Positions 9,700-54,009 of a stretch of 64,000 nt of DNA are shown in pieces (the first letter of the stretch is position 1; every line of letters begins with the position of its first letter). Source of the stretch: Panorpa germanica. Taxonomy: Eukaryota; Arthropoda; Insecta; Mecoptera; Panorpidae. The position numbers and the translations under genes were made by a program. Location: positions 11,918,603 through 11,982,602 of the forward strand of contig OY783211.1 of the NCBI GenBank assembly GCA_963678705.1. The letters are read 5' to 3'. Under the pieces are notes generated by a model, which saw only the letters and a program-made list of their open reading frames with translations, searched no databases and was not told the origin of the DNA.

Positions 9700-10378
9700 C
9701 AGAGGCGGCCTTAGGGGGTGGCAAGCGGGGCAACCGTCGGGGCAACCGTCGGGGCAACCGTCGGGGCAACCGTCGGGGCAACCGCCGGGGCAACCGCCCG
9801 GGGCATCGCATTCTCGCGCAACAACCCAAGTAGAAAAATTCATTGTTATACTCGTATATATCTATTTGAATCTCGCGCCTCATTCTTTAGAAATCCCACT
9901 AGAATCACTGCGTCTTTTTTTATGGTATTCATGTACCTTAGTTTATCATCATTAATATTTGTCGTCTTTGTGCTTGGTAACTTTTAAAAACTTCCATTAT
10001 AAAATTTTATTTCTCGTCAATTATTATCTAAAAGACGGGGCCTTGCAATGGCAAAGGCAAAGGCGCCCCTGCTTACTATATATATTGCAGGTAATAGAAT
10101 ATGCCTTCTAAATAATTCAATGATTGCTTTTTGTTCAAGGGTCATTAGGGGCGCAAAAAATATACATACGAGTATATTAATTAGCGATAGAATTAAAATT
10201 GAAAATATTACTTTTCTCGGCGAAAAAAATATTTTTTAGTGGCGAAAGTAATATTTTTTTTCCCGGCAGAAATATTATTCCGCTTATTATATTTATATTA
10301 TAATTATATAATTATATTTATATATAATATTATTTATAAAACTTTCTCGGGGCCTCGCAATGGCTAAAGCCGCCCCTG
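9700..10378. mobile_element. hAT-type non-autonomous element with 8-bp target duplications
   Basis: Terminal inverted repeats are CAGAGGCGGCCTTAG (9700-9714) and, on the other strand, CAGGGGCGGCTTTAG (10378-10364). They are flanked by identical 8-bp direct repeats TATGTATA (9692-9699 and 10379-10386), the target-site length of hAT transposons. A second copy of the right end (CAATGGCAAAGGC...GCGCCCCTG, about 10035-10075) lies inside, so the element is either nested or has a duplicated end. No transposase is encoded; the short frames across it come from the minisatellite below. The flanks are TA-rich, so part of the duplication could be coincidental, but the exact 8/8 match with good TIRs argues against that. 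Confidence 0.7.
9726..9797. repeat. 12-bp minisatellite inside the hAT-type element
   Basis: Six head-to-tail copies of CGGGGCAACCG[TC], GC-rich against the A+T-rich background. The 12-bp period keeps every frame open on both strands. That is why spurious Gly-Asn-Arg-Arg, Gly-Ala-Thr-Val and Pro-Arg-Arg-Leu repeat ORFs appear here. Confidence 0.9.
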
Positions 10379-38801: not shown

Positions 38802-39303
38802 ATAACGGATTCTTTAAGTGCTTTAAAAAATTGAAATTCTAATGATAACAAATCAAATAATGATATTTTGACATGCAGAATTAAGGAGATGTATTTCAAT
38901 ATAATAAATAAGAATAATACCATAAAATTTATGTGGATACCAGGACATTGTGGAATAAGAGGAAACGAAATTGCGGATAAATTGGCAAAGGAATCAATAA
39001 ATTTAGAAATTGAGATGAAAGTGAAATTACCTTCATATGAAATTTTGAATATAATCAAACAATTAAACTTCAATTTAAGAAACACAGAGTTCATTAACAA
39101 AAGTCAGTTAAAAGGAAGAGATTGTTATATAGGTCATCCAAATTTAAGTAAGAAAAGATAGTTTAGAAATGAGTCCCGCAAAATTATATCAACTATAATC
39201 AGAATCAAAAGTAATCATTGCAAAACTCCAGCTCACATGTACAAAATTAATATTAAATCTGACGATAGATGTCAATGTGGTGAAGAAGGAAAGTCAAGGC
39301 AAA
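38802..39303 (+). pseudogene. LINE ORF2 3' end: RNase H domain and CxC tail
   Basis: I-T-D-S-L-S-A-L-K (38802) holds one RNase H catalytic Asp. F-M-W-I-P-G-H-C-G-I-R-G-N-E-I-A-D-K-L-A-K (about 38931-38990) is the conserved His/Asp block. After the stop at 39161, T-P-A-H-M-Y-K-I-N...R-C-Q-C-G-E-E-G-K continues the typical C-terminus. An RNase H domain in the polyprotein points to an I/R1/LOA-group LINE. A TGA at 38832 and the later stop make it a pseudogene. It ends in an A/AATA-rich tail at about 39300-39323. Confidence 0.9.
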
Positions 39304-44568: not shown

Positions 44569-44673
44569 ATGTTTAATACGCAGTAGTAGATGTTTAATAC
44601 GCAGTAGTAGATGTTTAATACGCAATAGTAGATGTTTAATACGGAGTAGTAGATGTTTTATACGCAGTAGTAG
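44569..44673. repeat. 21-bp tandem repeat, five copies
   Basis: Unit ATGTTTAATACGCAGTAGTAG, five uninterrupted copies with one or two substitutions each (CAATAGTAG, GGAGTAGTAG, TTTTATACG). The last copy runs directly into the LINE fragment that follows. Confidence 0.95.
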
Positions 44674-44785
44674 ACAAAGACTTTAAAAAGGCCTTTGACA
44701 AGATTGTTGCATATGGAAAGCTATTGAAAAACACAACATGTCCAAGAAGATGATAAACTTTAAAAAGAGTATATACACAAATTGC
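44670..44785 (+). pseudogene. LINE reverse-transcriptase fragment
   Basis: V-D-K-D-F-K-K-A-F-D-K-I, then in another frame W-K-A-I-E-K-H-N-M-S-K-K-M-I-N and K-S-I-Y-T-N-C. This is the 'DFKKAFD...LWKAIEKHNIPKKLI..I..iY..C' segment of non-LTR reverse transcriptases, which holds the first catalytic Asp. One frameshift, truncated on both sides. Confidence 0.8.
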
Positions 44786-46728: not shown

Positions 46729-47583
46729 TTACATGAAGGCGTACCAAAAGACAAAAAGGAAAACAAGTGCAAAAATGAAAAATAATAATATCTCCTTAAA
46801 GGAGAATGGCGATTCTTCAGAAAAGTCTTCTGAAAATTCTTCTGAAGATTCTTCCAAAGATTCTTGTAAAGATTTTCGTGAAGATTTTTTTACTCTTCTT
46901 TCTCTTTTTGGTCTCCTAGGATTTTTTATTCTATTTTTTAAAATAGTCTTTTCTAAATAAATACTTAGAAATCTGAATCCATTTAATATATGGACAAAAC
47001 GCAATCCTAGATCATTTACCGTGTCCATGTATTTTCCAAATTCATTTTGTTCTTTCTGAAAAATAAAAATTATACATAATATTATATTTTTCATATATCA
47101 AAATAAAGAAAAGAAAAAAATAATAAAAATGAACTTTTAATGATTTCATTTATTAAAGCTTACCATTTGATTGTGCAATTTGTTGTTATTTAGCAAATTT
47201 TGTACTTTCTGTTTCCCACTGTTGAACATCGCAAACTGACTCGGGCTCATAGCATTGTATACGACCTTCATATCTCCAACACGACGTTCTCTGAAAGGTT
47301 GGCTAAAAATCCCGATAAATTAATATTGCATCTCGTTTATAAATTGTTTTTAACATTATAAGTAGTGAATTTTGTAAATAAAGGACCTCAAACATTGGCA
47401 ATAATAAATTAGGCTATCACTTAATATTCAAATATCGAATTTATTCACAAAATGTACTATTATTAGAAATGAAAATAAATATAACATTAAATAAAAAAAT
47501 ACTTACTTGTGTCGTAGATATTGGTCAACTGGTTTCTGTTGTTTACGGCTGTAATAAGGCGTGTCGCGATTGTAGAAATCCAT
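46729..47583 (-). CDS. Gene A: 176-aa protein with NRDTP head and C-terminal membrane segment (three exons)
   Basis: Coding exons on the minus strand are 47583-47507, 47290-47164 and 47055-46729. Introns are 216 and 108 nt, with donors GTAAGT and GTAAGC and acceptors TTTCAG and TTTTTCAG, in phases 2 and 0. Residues 1-9 are MDFYNRDTP. MSPSQFAMFN lies at 40-49. A hydrophobic HILNGFRFLSIYL helix lies around 90-102. A basic tract (NPRRPKRERRVKK) and a Ser/Glu-rich tract with repeated ES/EE/SE units follow. The chain ends in about 20 hydrophobic residues up to the stop. That architecture fits a tail-anchored protein with its charged part in the cytosol, which is inference. A TATA box lies upstream and a poly(A) signal downstream. 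The N-terminal half matches gene B, 3.15 kb away and divergent. Family and function are unknown to me. Confidence 0.8.
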
Positions 47584-47672
47584 ATTTACTGGTTTGTGTA
47601 AAATATTATAAAATCACTTAAATTTATTGCAGATTATTCAAACCTAAGTAGATATGTTCTCCTCGACAAAAG

Positions 47673-47680
47673 TATTTATA
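47673..47680 (-). promoter_or_regulatory. TATA box of gene A
   Basis: TATAAATA on the minus strand, about 90 nt before the ATG. Initiation about 30 nt downstream would give a 5' leader of roughly 65 nt. Confidence 0.55.
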
Positions 47681-50677
47681 CTAAAATCTTTATTTCTTTG
47701 CCTTTAGCGCCATGTGATTTTCTGGTGGCGCCTCTAACGTCATTTCGGGATACTTATACGACTTTGTGATACTATTTCCGTTCTGAAGGTGGTAAAACTT
47801 ACCAGAGACAGGGATAATTAACATTTATGTGAACTCTATGTTTACGTGGTTTTTTTAAATTTCTGATTGAAATAAATTTTAATAAAAGTAAAAATATATA
47901 AGTCCGTCAACTTTTGTATATTAAAAAAAATGAAAACGCGTCAATAAATATATACTAACCTTTATTTCAATGAAAAGTTTAAAAAACGACTTAAAAATTA
48001 AGTTCACAAGGCTGTTCATATTGTTTGTGTTCTATTCACATGAAAATATAGTACTTCCTTAGGTTGGAGTTGAAATGACAGAAGAAAGAAACCAAAACAG
48101 AAAATATCATTTAAGAAAAACGCCATAATTAGGCGTACTAATTAACCGAGAATCTAACTGTCCACTTAACTTTTCAATTTGAACTTTATCTATAATTTTC
48201 TTACTCATTTCAATTGGTTTATAAATAATTGGCTATTTTGAATAAAAATATTTTAATTTCAATTTGTTCTGTCAGTAGTCATATTAGATATGTTAGTCAT
48301 TACTTGATACTTGATAACACAATGTTGTTTGTACTATTAGGCCGCGTTCATACTTGCGTGTTCAAGTTGGACATAAAATTCGTGCTCATTTGGCAACCAT
48401 TTGAATTTTATATACAACGACAAATATTTTTTAGTATCGGTAAAGTAAAATAGGTCATAGCCTTGACTACTATAACATTAAAACATAACCTACAATACTC
48501 AATATGAGCGTAAAATTAACAATTCTCGAATCTTTCAATAAACAACTAAATTTGATTTTATTTAAAGAACATAAGATAAGATTAGACAAATGGATGACCG
48601 TTGAATATTTGCCATATTTTAAATATAATTAACAAGTGGTTCGGCTTGACCTTTAATAATTGGCAAACCGCCAACGGCTGTGTGTCTCTGCCAACACGAA
48701 TACACCCAAATAGATGTTCAAAATTTGGAACAGACCATCACTTGGAGTAAAATCTTTCGATACTGAAAGAACAGCTTTTAGCAGCTTTAGCTTTTTTTAT
48801 TTATGTAATTCTATGAATTACTATGAATATTATTATAAAATTCTATAATAATAGTGCACATTTCTGCCCATGATGTCAACACAGTCGCCTAAAACATGCT
48901 CAAAGCCAATTTGGAATGAATTTTCACGTGCCAAATCTCACTAACAACACCGTTCCATTCTCATTCGGTTCGGGCAGATTCGGGGTTAAGGTTTGCAACC
49001 AGTCGCCTCGTGTGCGGACACCCTTACAATACGACTGTATACGACTGAGTATCGCGCTGGACGCAGTATACACCAAAGCAACTCATACAAAAAAAATGAG
49101 GTTAGTTTATTTTTAATTTTGTAAATAATAAATAATATATATAAATAAAAAAAGAGAATAATCAAAGAACAATTAAAAGGTCATAAATGTTTAATATATA
49201 TTTTAACATTTGTTTCTTTAGAATATTTATTTTATTAATAACTTTATTCATTCAAGAATTTTTCAGTTTATATTTCATTAATTTTTTCCTTATGAAGAAA
49301 ACAGGACGTTAACTTTATTTGGTTATTTGTTATATAATTGATACTTATTATATAATTAATTAACAATGTAAGAAATAGTGATTTATTTCTAATTTTTTCC
49401 ATGTAATTTTCCACTGCGACACAACAGTGGCTCACATAATTACATAAATTGTAATGAAGATATGTTAAATAGGTAGTGCCCATCCTATTTTCTTTAAAAA
49501 TATAAATTTGTTATCTGGATATCCATTCAAATCTAATAAAATGTTGAAAATAGTAGCACAAATCTGTAGATTTTTGTCAATTCGATGTTTGTAAAAGAAA
49601 CAGGTTATGTTTACTAACAAATAAGGGTCAGAGTAGGATAGATATATATTTTGTCTCAAAGAAGTACTGTTCCTATACTTTACAGTTTCCTGTAATATAA
49701 CTATAGGAGTACTTTGTATTTATTATTCACAAAACAATTAAAATTTTATATTGATAACGTATTTATAATATTACAAAATTCATATCAAAAGTATTGTCTA
49801 AATTTGAAATTTAGTTTTCGTGTATAGCTAAATGCTTGTTGTCTATAAAATATATTAATTTAGTCACATATTCTTAGTATTTTTAAGTTTCTTGTAACAT
49901 GAAAAGAGTTGCTAATTCTTACCTCTCACTTTTTTATATTTGGTTTGGTGAGTTAAGGAATTAGATTAGCAGGTTGATGTAACTCCGCTTTGTATATATA
50001 TAAAGAGTTTGCTAAATTATAAATTTGTGTTAACCGTCAAATGCGGGTAATAATTCTTCCAAATGGAAGATAAACATACGCTAATACCCTTAAACAACTG
50101 AAGTAACTTAGAACTTAAGAATACTAAACTAATCCGCAATGAGTGCTCATTAATTAATTTCAGATGAGAGAAACAACACGAAAATATGCAGCGCATCGAC
50201 TTATATGAACTAGTGTTATTGTGACGACTAACACTGACTAAGTAAGTTCTATTTTATTATCTCCTATTTTAATAATTTCGTCATGAATCAATCATATACG
50301 GTGGCTCAAAGACAGCACTGCCTATTTTGTAGAGAAAAAAATTCTTAGATTTTTGGTATCCTAAAATATTTCCTTGAATTTCCTGGAAACCCCGAAATTT
50401 GAAAAGAAAAGATAGTAGTAAACTGAAGCACATTTTCCTTTAAAATATTTAACTCTTAGTAGATAGAAAGTTGAAATTTGGTATATACATTAACTTATTC
50501 ATTGAGAAAATATTCCAAATTTAGAAATTAAAAAAGTTAAGGCAAAAACTTTTGTTAAAAGTGGAGATGAATCTATATAACAAGTAAAGCATAAAATTTA
50601 ACAATTTTATTGTGTTACAATATCACAAAATTAATTAATCTACTTTTTTTTAGTCTATGCAGATGCTATTCAATTAA
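47681..50677. other. Intergenic region between divergent genes A and B
   Basis: No further gene recognised. Frames at 48229-48453 and 49268-49659 (minus) are A+T-rich and unsupported. It contains a MITE arm fragment (48939-49012) and the repeat motif at 50463-50484. GGCGCC/GCGCCAT words occur at about 47708-47735, just upstream of gene A's TATA box. Confidence 0.45.
48939..49012. mobile_element. Fragment of the long-inverted-repeat MITE
   Basis: ACTAACAACACCG...CATTCGGTTCGGGCAGATTCGGGG, TAAGGTTTGCAACCAGTCG and GTGTGCGGAC match the right arm of 31249-31791. The other arm is not seen. Confidence 0.75.
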
Positions 50678-50702
50678 CCAATATTTGTCTTCTCTATAAA
50701 AG
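50678..50702 (+). promoter_or_regulatory. CCAAT and TATA elements of gene B
   Basis: CCAAT at 50678-50682 and TATAAAAG at 50695-50702. The ATG is only 33 nt past the TATA box, so the usual start site would leave a leader of about 10 nt. Either the leader is very short or the real promoter lies upstream. Confidence 0.45.
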
Positions 50703-50734
50703 AAAATAAGACTTAAATAAATTGGTTATTGAAA

Positions 50735-53700
50735 ATGCATTTTTTCAATCGAGACACACCTTTCATTGAACCTAAGAATCTTACTAATATAGAAAAGTGT
50801 CTTAAAAAGTAAGTACGATTTATATTAATTAAGATATGAATAGTGCATGACATGGATACTTAGGGTGTTTTTTAATTACTGCGAACAATGCGACTTAGTG
50901 CACTTAGCTAGCGCACTGTGCAGATGTTTAATTGGAACATTCAATAATTTTAACAAGGAATATTAAATAGAACACAAGAAATGCTTAATTATTTGATTGA
51001 AATTGATTATTTTAATGGTTAACCTAATTTTTTCTTCTAGATTCATTTTTAAACAAATGTATAAACGGTGTAATAATTAACATATCAATAAACGCTGCCC
51101 CATGCTAAATCTGAAATTCTCGCTCTCAATTTTACATTAGTAACAGATATCTAATAAACAACATTATAAATTTTGTTAACAATGGTTTAAATTATAAAAA
51201 GAACAGGTTATAAAATGCAAGATTTGTTTAAATTAATATTTAGCAACATATTTTAAAAAAAAAGAATATAAAGTAAAAATTTTATTACTTTTAAAAGTAT
51301 ATTTAATTCCATTAAGAAAAAATGTAGAATGATAGTTATAATTTAGTGCAAATAGTTATTTAAGTATATCTTTATAATAGTAAAAATGAAGCATTTTGGG
51401 AAGGTCGTTATATTAAGAACCCCACTAGGCTCCCACTCATAGAATATTTTAGTTTTTTGGAGCTGTAATCAGTCTATATAAACTGTCATATACAGAGCAA
51501 ATACAATTACACTCTTGAGAAAGGTGGTTTCAGGAGTTGGATCAATCCTACGGTAAGGATGCTGAGCATCGCTGGGAAGTGTATCGAGCTAAAGGGGACA
51601 ATAATAGACATTGAACAATAAAGAATAATATTTATAAGTTTTACATTTTTATTATTAACGCGGATACTTGATTAATTGATTATACACTTACCTATTATAG
51701 TCTTCTAGTATTACAATCTTTGTTGAACTATCAAAAATAATTCCTGTATATAGTTGCAAAACAATTAACTAATTTTATTTGTTTCTTTCAGAAGGACATC
51801 TACTCAAGATTTAAAAATGTTATACTCGAAGATGAGTTTGATTCAGTATTCATTGTTTAACCGCAAGTTGACGAACGCTGAGTTATTTGACAAAATACAA
51901 CTACGACCTAAAGAAAGTCTTACTCGCCGTTATATAAAAATTTCGCAGCGTCTTCTTTTTCTAACCTTGTGGTTAAAGAAAGTACAAAATCCAATTAAAC
52001 AAAATATTAATAAGGTTCTTAAAATAACAGGTGTAGCTCAAGATAATAAATCACAAGAAGAAACTGAATTAAAAGCTTCTGTTGCTAAATGTCCTGCAAG
52101 TGATATTGTTGATTCCAAAAATGAATCATCCAAAGAACCACAAAACCCTATCAAAAAATTCAAGAAAGATGATGATTTAAATGGAAATGCACAAGATGTG
52201 AAGCTACAAATAATGAAAAAATTAACAGTCCCTGTCAGTAAATGTCCTGCAAGTGATATTGTTGATTCCAAAAATGAATCATCCAAAGAACCACAAAACC
52301 CTAGCAAAAAATTCAAGAAAGATGATGATTTAAATGGAAGTGCACAAGAAGTGAAGCTACAAACAATGAAAAAATTAACAGTCCCTGTTTGTAAATGTTT
52401 TGAAAATTATATTGTTAATTCCAAAAATAAATCATTCAAAAAACCGAAGAACCCTTGCAAAAAATTCAAGAAAGATGATGATTTAAATGAAGATGCACAA
52501 GTAAGGAAGCTACAAACAAAGCAAGAATTAACAGTCCCTGTCAGTAAATGTCCTGCAAGTGATATTGTTGATTCCAAAAATGAATCATCCAAAGAATCAC
52601 AAAACCCTATCAGAAAATTTAAGCATGATGATGATTTGAATGAAGATTCACAAGGAATGAAGCTACAAAAAACGCAAGAATTAACAGTCCCTGTCAGTAA
52701 ATGTCCTGCAAGTGATATTGTTGATTCCAAAAATGATTCATTCAAAGAACCACAGAACCCTATCGGAAAATTAAAGCAAGATGATAATTTGAATGAAGAT
52801 ACACAAGTAATGAAGCTACAAACAACGCAAGAATTAACAGTCCCTGTTAGGAAATGTTCTGCAAATGATATTGTTAATTCCAAAAATAAATCATTCAAAA
52901 AACCGAAGAACCCTTGCAAAAAATTCAAGAAAAATGATGATTTAAATGAAAATGCACAAGTAAGGAATCTACAAACAATGCAAGAATTAACAGTCCCTGT
53001 CAGTAAATGTTCTGCAAGTGATATTGTTGATTCCAAAAATGAATCATTCAAGGAACCACAGAACCCTAGCAAAAAATTTAAGCAAGATGATGATTTAAAT
53101 GGAATTACACAAGAAATGAAGCTACAAACAACGCAAGAATTAACAGTCCCTGTCAGTAAATGTTCTGCAAGTGATATTGTTAATTCCAAAAATAAATCAT
53201 TCAAAAAACCGAAGAACTCTTGCAAAAAATTCAAGAAAAATGATGATTTAAATGAAGATGCACAAGTAAGGAAGCTACAAACAACGCAAGAATTAACAAT
53301 CCCTGTCAGTAAATGTTCTACAAGTAAAACTACTCTTGCCCAAAATAAAAAAGAAGCGTCGGAAGCAAGTTGTATTAAAACTAAACCAAAAAGCGTAAAA
53401 ATAAAAAAAAATAACGAATGTGATAAAGTAAAGAAAGTGATAGGAAAATGTTCAATTAAAGATAAAAAAGATTTGAAAGAATCTCTTGGTGAAAGTTCTG
53501 GAAGTCAAATTAAGAAAAGTAAAAATAAAATAAAAGCGACCAAATCAAGTTGTGTTAAATTAAATAACAAAAATAAAGTAAATAGTAAAAAATCCCTTAC
53601 ATTAAAGACTAAAATTGTACGAAAAATTGATTTGCAAAAGCTTTGCAAACATTGCAAACATAGAAGTCACATTTCTAATTTCCTAGAAATGAAAAATGCA

Positions 53701-54009
53701 GAGAAAAATGGTGGTATCAAAACTATTAATAAACGTGAAGTTAAATTTAGAAACGCACTAGCTAAATTAGAGGCAATACTTAAAAGCAAAATTGCATTGC
53801 AAGCATCTGTTTCTAAATGTTCTATAAGTCAGATGACTACAATGAATAGGTTGCAAGAAGAAAGTGTTAATGAAACTGAAGCAAAAAACGAGGAACCATT
53901 AAACCATAGCAAAAGATGTAAGGAAGATGATGATAGTGATAAAGAGCAAATTAAATCAGTTGCAATATTGGAATTAACAGCACCTGTTAGTGAAAGTTCT
54001 TCAAGTTAG
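50735..54009 (+). CDS. Gene B: 763-aa lysine-rich repeat protein with NRDTP head (two exons)
   Basis: Exon 1 is 50735-50808 (donor A|GTAAGT), the intron is 50809-51791 (acceptor TTTCTTTCAG) and exon 2 is 51792-54009. The split codon AA|A keeps frame, and a stop (TAA, 14 nt before) lies just upstream of the ATG. Residues 1-9 are MHFFNRDTP. MSLIQYSLFN lies at 39-48 and a KISQRLLFLTLWLKK helix at 74-88. Residues 124-531 are eight 51-aa repeats rich in Lys, Asp, Ser and Asn. Then comes a very basic region (IKKNN, KKSKNKIK), a C-x2-C-x4-H stretch (CKHCKHRSH) near 645-653, and a degenerate ninth unit at the C-terminus. There is no signal peptide. It is probably a disordered, basic nuclear or structural protein (inference). 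Starting at ATG 51817 instead would lose the shared head. It is a paralogue of gene A over the first 90 residues or so; function unknown. Confidence 0.85.
51380..51625 (+). mobile_element. Possible retroelement (LTR-like) fragment in the gene B intron
   Basis: Slightly GC-richer sequence with TCTATATAAACTGTCATATA, CAGAGCAAATACAATTACACTC and, 90 nt later, CAATAAAG. A TATA box followed by a leader and a poly(A) signal is what an LTR looks like. I could not find matching TG...CA ends, a duplication or a second LTR. Confidence 0.25.
52087..53310 (+). repeat. Eight exact-length 153-bp coding repeats in gene B
   Basis: Units start at 52087, 52240, 52393, 52546, 52699, 52852, 53005 and 53158, all 153 nt with no indel. 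Two subtypes alternate. A has DIVDSKN[ED]S and KE[PS]QNP. B has IVNSKNKSFKKPKN and a C before KKF. The order is A A B A A B A B. Every unit shares [ST]VPV..KC at the junction and D[DN][DN]LN in the middle. A partial unit precedes 52087 and a degenerate one ends the protein. Confidence 0.95.

Follow-up and report, generated by a model that had tools for sequence, protein, structure and literature searches.

Two head-to-head genes of Panorpa germanica with a common N-terminal module, unlike C-termini and probable relatives on two other chromosomes

Two described classes come closest to the genes presented here: taxonomically restricted (orphan) fast-evolving families, which are usually identified from nothing more than weak sequence similarity, and tail-anchored membrane proteins, which carry a single hydrophobic segment within the last ~30 residues. 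We analysed a stretch of 64,000 nucleotides (nt) of chromosome 8 of the scorpionfly Panorpa germanica (C8:11918603-11982602; hereafter the window, to which all coordinates without a chromosome name refer), in which two predicted genes, A on the minus strand and B on the plus strand, are neighbours in head-to-head orientation. We consider A and B to be, probably, old duplicates within a dispersed, fast-evolving family of this species, in which a module exon stands on unrelated C-termini. The genome searched consisted of 464,208,970 bases in 249 contigs, C21 being the X chromosome, and searches around the locus covered 264 kb, that is, the window and 100 kb on either side. For the assembly, GCA_963678705.1, PMC11464959 gives 254 scaffolds.

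Gene A has three predicted exons and codes for 176 amino acids, with introns of the form GTAAGT..CAG and GTAAGC..CAG; gene B has two predicted exons and codes for 763 amino acids, with an intron of the form GTAAGT..CAG. An earlier note, made from the letters of this stretch alone, had proposed these models, and both splice in frame exactly as it predicted, with consensus GT..AG introns, GTAAG donors and CAG acceptors. The features of the two genes are the following.

46729..47055, minus strand: gene A exon 3, 327 nt, with a helix-like stretch, an Arg/Lys and then Ser/Glu-rich stretch, and the stop
46735..46791, minus strand: putative tail anchor of gene A, a C-terminal hydrophobic segment at residues 157-175 of 176
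47164..47290, minus strand: gene A exon 2, 127 nt, phase 2 to phase 0, the family module
47507..47583, minus strand: gene A exon 1, 77 nt, 25 2/3 codons, MDFYNRDTP..., predicted junctions
47673..47680, minus strand: TATAAATA 5' of gene A, found by eye, weak evidence in DNA of 70% A+T
50695..50702, plus strand: TATAAAAG 5' of gene B, found by eye, weak evidence
50735..50808, plus strand: gene B exon 1, 74 nt, MHFFNRDTP...
51792..54009, plus strand: gene B exon 2, 2218 nt, running to the stop
51792..51918, plus strand: part of gene B exon 2 that corresponds to the 127-nt family exon, with the acceptor but no donor (CT for GT)
52087..53310, plus strand: gene B repeat array, eight 51-residue (153-bp) units, residues 124-531
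53815..54006, plus strand: degenerate unit-like stretch at the C-terminal end of gene B, KCSIS...ELTAPVSESSSS, by eye only

As the earlier note had described, both proteins begin with M-x-F-[YF]-N-R-D-T-P, both are interrupted by a first intron in phase 2 after an AA half-codon of a split Lys (residue 26 in A and residue 25 in B), and in both of them eight residues ending in D-[ML]-K are followed by MS-x-x-Q-[FY]-x-x-FN. When residues 1-110 of the two spliced proteins were aligned locally (BLOSUM62, 11/1), we obtained a score of 105 against a shuffle mean of 29.1, with none of 5000 shuffles scoring as high; the alignment spans residues 1-104 of A and 1-88 of B, with 34% identity. The note had allowed that the resemblance would be chance if no similarity were found beyond the NRDTP residues. 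In this respect, the sequences from exon 2 onward, NRDTP being excluded, still scored 64 against a shuffle mean of 26.7 (again 0/5000 as high), and with the MSxxQ[FY]xxFN block masked too the preceding 13 residues of A and B still matched each other (p 0.0005). Using exon 1 and exon 2 onward of each gene as tblastn queries on the 264 kb, the partner gene was the best non-self match for all four queries, with weak expect values (E 0.023-0.39). We considered the A-B resemblance as homology because of both the shuffle scores and these reciprocal best matches.

This homology is taken to be old, since blastn between the two genes gives only short A/T-rich matches (none convincing, the best being 29 nt long with E 0.003 and on the wrong strand), and 188 out of 500 shuffles do as well as the real match between the sequences upstream of A and of B. 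The same comparison of upstream DNA gave 257/500 shuffles as good for A against gene C, described below, and 12/500 for B against C. No convincing inverted repeat was found at DNA level between A and B either. Therefore, of the inverted duplication put forward in the earlier note, the head-to-head orientation is real, and the duplication itself we infer from gene order alone, as no convincing DNA similarity between the genes survives. The search for further exon 1 copies that the note had suggested was run on the whole genome: exact matches to the NRDTP pattern were only A and B, and allowing at most one base mismatch in the codon pattern gave 5 places, namely A, B and three others, which were rejected as exon 1 copies, no coherent exon following them. 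Further copies of A or B were searched by tblastn within 100 kb either side of the window, and none was above noise.

More distant relatives were reached by other routes. The MSxxQ[FY]xxFN pattern occurs at 114 places genome-wide, compared with 29 in a reversed control; of the 100 places listed, 81 have a stop within the motif (most of these belonging to a single repeat family); the rest comprise A and B themselves and 17 places without a stop, all of which were read. Among these listed matches, only one of the 17 combines a frame open over 42 codons with AG and GT at the exact positions they have in A, an anatomy found in 2 out of 604 open ATG frames in the 264 kb, A being excluded. This is gene C, predicted on chromosome 16, with exons of 65, 127 and 318 nt, coding for 169 amino acids, the short first exon ending in phase 2 and lacking the NRDTP start. 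Within C16:3457900-3463900, gene C sits between two frames of the minus strand that, judging by their translations, resemble genes for a MADF-domain protein and for a cytosolic 5'-nucleotidase.

Gene D was reached solely via exon 3 of C, which has a weak genome match on the X (E 0.064). Upstream of this match lies a 127-nt exon (TTTTACAG|..|GTAAGT), in which the motif occupies the same codons, and no pattern drawn from A or B had picked D. Gene E was then reached through D (E 3.8) and gene F through E (E 0.10), each with the same 127-nt exon. D, E and F were accepted despite these weak E-values because the exon anatomy fitted, as did, for C-F, the exon 3 block, [QH]-I-x-[AS]-R-x3-[LM]-x2-[FYI]-[LI]-x-[KR], which is common to the third exons of C, D, E and F and clear among all four; by eye, C and D also have in common C-x-[IL]-H near the C-terminus. 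Two other places, one on C17 (E 2.3) and a second on the X (E 0.12, two stops), were rejected, no exon of the family anatomy being present in the open segments displayed.

Genes D, F and E lie in tandem on the X, on the same strand and within ~12 kb. When 33 kb of the X were scanned for the exon anatomy, 9 intervals were obtained; a loose form of the motif is present in 4 of them, namely D, F, E and one further candidate, G. The first exons of D, E and F are candidates only. Candidate G and the first-exon candidates of F and E lie at the following coordinates.

X 39089984-39090110: candidate G, found by the anatomy scan only, with LGHKTASEFS departing from the motif and no recognised exon 3
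X 39096297: candidate first exon of F, 65 nt, MSANSIKQSALAILAEIHTVN, GTAAGTAT donor, phase 2, no NRDTP
X 39101547: candidate first exon of E, 74 nt, MVKNIHTIIEYISPEARNEIDNMV, GTAAGTAT donor, phase 2, no NRDTP

Each of A, C, D, E and F has a predicted exon 2 of exactly 127 nt that begins in phase 2 and ends in phase 0, and G is a candidate for the same anatomy; B has the acceptor of this exon and lacks its donor. The motif [ML]-x3-[QED]-[FYL]-[AS]-x-F-N is found at codons 14-23 of exon 2 in all of A-F, as follows.

Gene A: MSPSQFAMFN
Gene B: MSLIQYSLFN
Gene C: MTPQQYASFN
Gene D: MDAKELARFN
Gene E: LDIKELATFN
Gene F: MGVKDFAIFN

For the membership of A and B, we used profiles made from the C-F peptides without A or B, and searched the 264 kb as 92 open 127-nt intervals bounded by AG and GT, 1733 AG-started open intervals and 8392 six-frame segments. 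With the profile of C, D, E and F (CDEF), the A exon was first of the 92 intervals with E 7.3e-5 (next 0.0035) and first of the six-frame segments with E 0.01 (next 0.027), where it was also first with the CDE (E 0.021), CD (0.047) and CE (0.11) profiles. With the DEF profile, it was narrowly first of the 92 (E 0.0093) and first of the 1733 (E 0.17). Scores of exon 2 in register gave p 0.003 for A-D and p 0.024 for A-E. We considered A as a probable member of the family. In the case of B, the exon was seventh of the 1733 intervals with CDEF (E 0.12) and reached rank 3 (E 0.24) when A was added to the profile. Because profiles made without A and B do not recognise its exon, the membership of B rests on its homology to A, and B would belong to the family mainly through it.

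It is also conceivable, though unlikely in our judgement, that A and B are no more than a local pair of duplicates, and that their likeness to C-F comes from convergent exon anatomy and a short degenerate motif. Several results weigh for this and against a common family. C was found by a pattern drawn from A and B, and with the motif masked its exon 2 is not significantly like that of A (p 0.22-0.40) and only slightly like that of B (p 0.03-0.14). Among the six-frame segments, A ranked only 4th with DEF (E 1.5) and 11th with DE (E 7.2), and B ranked 37 with CDEF and 69 with CDE, being 41st of the 1733 intervals with DEF. The margin of A with DEF is slim, the runner-up interval of the 92 having E 0.021 against 0.0093; this runner-up, 81 kb left of the window, has poor splice sites (no pyrimidine tract, poor donor) and was taken as chance, and it shows how near noise the DEF test lies. 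The in-register scores of exon 2 are not significant for B-D (0.17) and B-E (0.23). As regards the exon 3 block, neither A nor B is among the best 12 of the 8392 segments with a C-D-E profile, and when the block is slid along the sequences the p value is 0.42-0.62 for A, which is not significant, and 0.03 for B; pairwise values for this block in A and B were obtained in a register picked by eye, and are to be discounted. Moreover, D, E and F were reached through weak matches, and NRDTP is missing from C and from the exon 1 candidates of D, E and F. On the other side, the 127-nt length, both phases and the motif offset are common to A, C, D, E and F, whereas this anatomy occurs in 2 of 604 frames of the background; A is first of 92 intervals with both DEF and CDEF; and the in-register values of A-D and A-E are significant. 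The values for A-C (0/20000) and B-C (0.0009) point the same way, but both are inflated by how C was found.

The remaining explanations are each less probable than a local pair. Were A and B dead or barely expressed duplicates, with open frames arising by accident and an array that is a non-coding tandem expansion happening to be open, the changes within the array would look as they do, that is, as expected without selection (see below). This we consider improbable, since the chance of an open frame in this base composition is 9e-7 for the 176 codons of A and 6e-13 for B outside the array, the splice sites are consensus ones and the module exon of A is recognisable from distant paralogues. An origin from a virus or a transposable element, to which the several genomic loci and the retroelement pieces in the window might point, seems to us very improbable: the genes contain several introns, the Pfam listings hold no family of transposases, integrases or capsid proteins, and the A/B N-terminus had no relative in IMG/VR or GTDB. 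Finally, we give hardly any credit to the idea that the A-B resemblance is chance or a misreading of splice sites. The high divergence and the lack of convincing DNA similarity would fit it, but none of the 5000 shuffles equals the score with or without exon 1, the intron position and phase are the same with consensus splice sites, and A and B are mutual best non-self matches in the 264 kb.

The unlike C-termini described in the earlier note were found, with a putative hydrophobic anchor in A and an array of 51-residue units in B. In gene A, the top 19-residue Kyte-Doolittle windows all lie at residues 156-176, with a peak mean of 2.82, whereas residues 1-125 reach a peak of only 1.16, so that there is no second comparable segment. 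Gene A has then the single hydrophobic segment within the last ~30 residues by which tail anchors are recognised, and its C-terminus is a putative tail anchor, which would insert into a membrane.

Gene B is made, in order, of the module, the eight-unit array, a stretch rich in Lys and what looks by eye like a degenerate unit. The protein has 18% Lys, an isoelectric point of 9.6 and 22 Cys. Two unit types are intermixed in the array (units 3, 6 and 8 versus the others), and Tandem Repeats Finder (TRF) additionally gives a period of 459 bp. Pooling the units, we obtained a pN of 0.126 and a pS of 0.091, and 7 out of 49 changes were synonymous, compared with 10.4 expected without selection (P 0.15). 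The units of gene B drift while the reading frame stays open.

Concerning how the two ends came to differ, the earlier note had proposed C-terminal replacement or explosive repeat growth. Repeat growth is plain from the eight units, and the idea of replacement can be sharpened: B is without the donor of the 127-nt exon and reads on beyond it. As A, C, D, E and F all keep this donor, its putative loss in B would be the simpler history.

From these observations, a possible mechanism may be put together. The module, of ~80-100 residues, basic and probably helical, may be a protein-protein docking unit. In gene A, it would be held by the tail anchor on the cytosolic face of a membrane, probably of the endoplasmic reticulum or the nuclear envelope; in gene B, it would carry a long, probably disordered, Lys/Ser-rich multivalent chain, the loss of the donor having presumably led to read-through from the module into the repeat-bearing tail. 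The two paralogues might in this way bring one docking unit to different contexts in the cell. A reproductive (gonad) setting of the family appears more likely than a housekeeping one, given the rapid turnover of the sequences and the freedom with which the tails change. PMC10715201 reports an excess of ovary-specific genes on the X of the related Panorpa cognata, with many testis-specific ones too, as well as RNA-seq libraries of gonad, head and carcass for that species. As the Panorpa cognata X holds both gene classes according to this source, the array on the X does not decide between ovary and testis. Extending the preferred reading further, and only as a tentative proposal that we would not yet hold likely, this could be a lineage-restricted scorpionfly family, on autosomes and in a tandem array on an ancient X, whose portable docking exon was joined to an anchor or, via a single donor loss in the neighbouring gene, to a growing repeat chain, possibly under reproductive conflict.

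Searches for known relatives were carried out in several collections. Pfam was searched with A, with residues 1-173 and exon 2 of B, with C, with exons 2-3 of D, and with E and F; no listed match reached its curated cut-off, and none was listed for D and E. The sub-threshold matches were rejected, namely EMC3_TMCO1 over the tail of A (E 0.044), DIL for B (E 0.03), Uds1 for C (E 0.11) and DnaD_N for F (E 0.05). In the PDB, searched by sequence, A had no match at E 10 and the best one for B residues 1-173, with 0.48, was not taken as real; neither were the match of C to IFT54 (E 0.018) and that of a profile of seven exon 2 peptides, G included, to an aerobactin synthase (E 0.009, 22 positions). 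The alignment of the A and B N-termini gave 81 pattern matches in IMG/VR viral contigs and 86 in GTDB genomes, none of which was confirmed. A text search of PubMed Central for NRDTP returned unrelated papers only, and no description of the family was found there, although a text search cannot see sequence databases. The suggestion of an undescribed, fast-evolving gene family is hence upheld, undescribed being understood within Pfam, PDB, IMG/VR, GTDB and PubMed Central text, and it is widened by the predicted genes C, D, E and F and by candidate G.

Other features were observed around the two genes. Between A and B, an island rich in G+C (48860-49110, 44.6% against 29.3% and 24.7% in its flanks) ends in ATGAG|GTTAGT at ~49095; a further gene of the plus strand might have its 5' untranslated region and a very small first exon here, and B may lie inside the first intron of that gene. 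At 38835-39158 (plus strand) there is an RNase H piece, presumably derived from a retroelement (Pfam E 4.8e-8). Two clean short tandem repeats lie at 44569-44674 (21 bp x 5.0, 94% matches) and 9726-9805 (12 bp x 6.6, 97% matches). A dispersed and partly tandem repeat family, ATGTGCTGAAGGCAATTTAATATATTCAAT and its variants, has tens of occurrences on C1, C2, C5, C6, C8 and other contigs, several pairs of which are ~4.3 kb apart. Outside the window, an uninterrupted frame of 246 amino acids 6.6 kb to its left (C8:11911298-11912035, minus strand) matches the Pfam HLH family with E 4.9e-19 and is presumably of the achaete-scute-like type; no second copy of it was found by tblastn in the 264 kb. 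At 50 kb to the left (C8:11865256-11868603, minus strand), an uninterrupted frame of 1116 amino acids has many ankyrin repeats and a weak AAA-type match, below cut-off.

No known pathway is altered by these findings. What they would add is a mark by which to follow such families: the exon itself, recognisable by its length, its two phases and the offset of its motif, seems durable, having been met again on two other chromosomes, and exon anatomy offers a way to trace a family where similarity searches fail. The A/B pair is also a concrete and testable case of how a single donor loss could open a gene to the growth of a repeat tail and, if true, it would be a natural example of splice-site loss making a new repeat-bearing protein tail.

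Compared with the known systems, gene A resembles the tail-anchored membrane proteins in having one strongly hydrophobic segment at the extreme C-terminus, and departs from them in that no sequence relative was found for it; B, C, D (exons 2-3), E and F are without such a segment. Within the species, the predicted genes C (chromosome 16) and D, F and E (X) are like A in the 127-nt exon 2, its phases 2 and 0 and the module motif; unlike A and B, they show no NRDTP start (in D, E and F, as far as the candidate first exons go), no membrane anchor and no repeat array, and they have the exon 3 block, for which A gives no demonstrable match. Orphan families that evolve fast are in themselves a known kind of thing, and it is this particular family that seems new. 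With such taxonomically restricted families, as they are generally known, it has in common short basic proteins without a Pfam domain, a deep divergence of paralogues, a kept exon length and kept phases, and a tandem cluster together with dispersed copies. It differs from them in the two members of one duplicate pair, whose tails are entirely unlike, one being a putative tail anchor and the other an array of 51-residue units.

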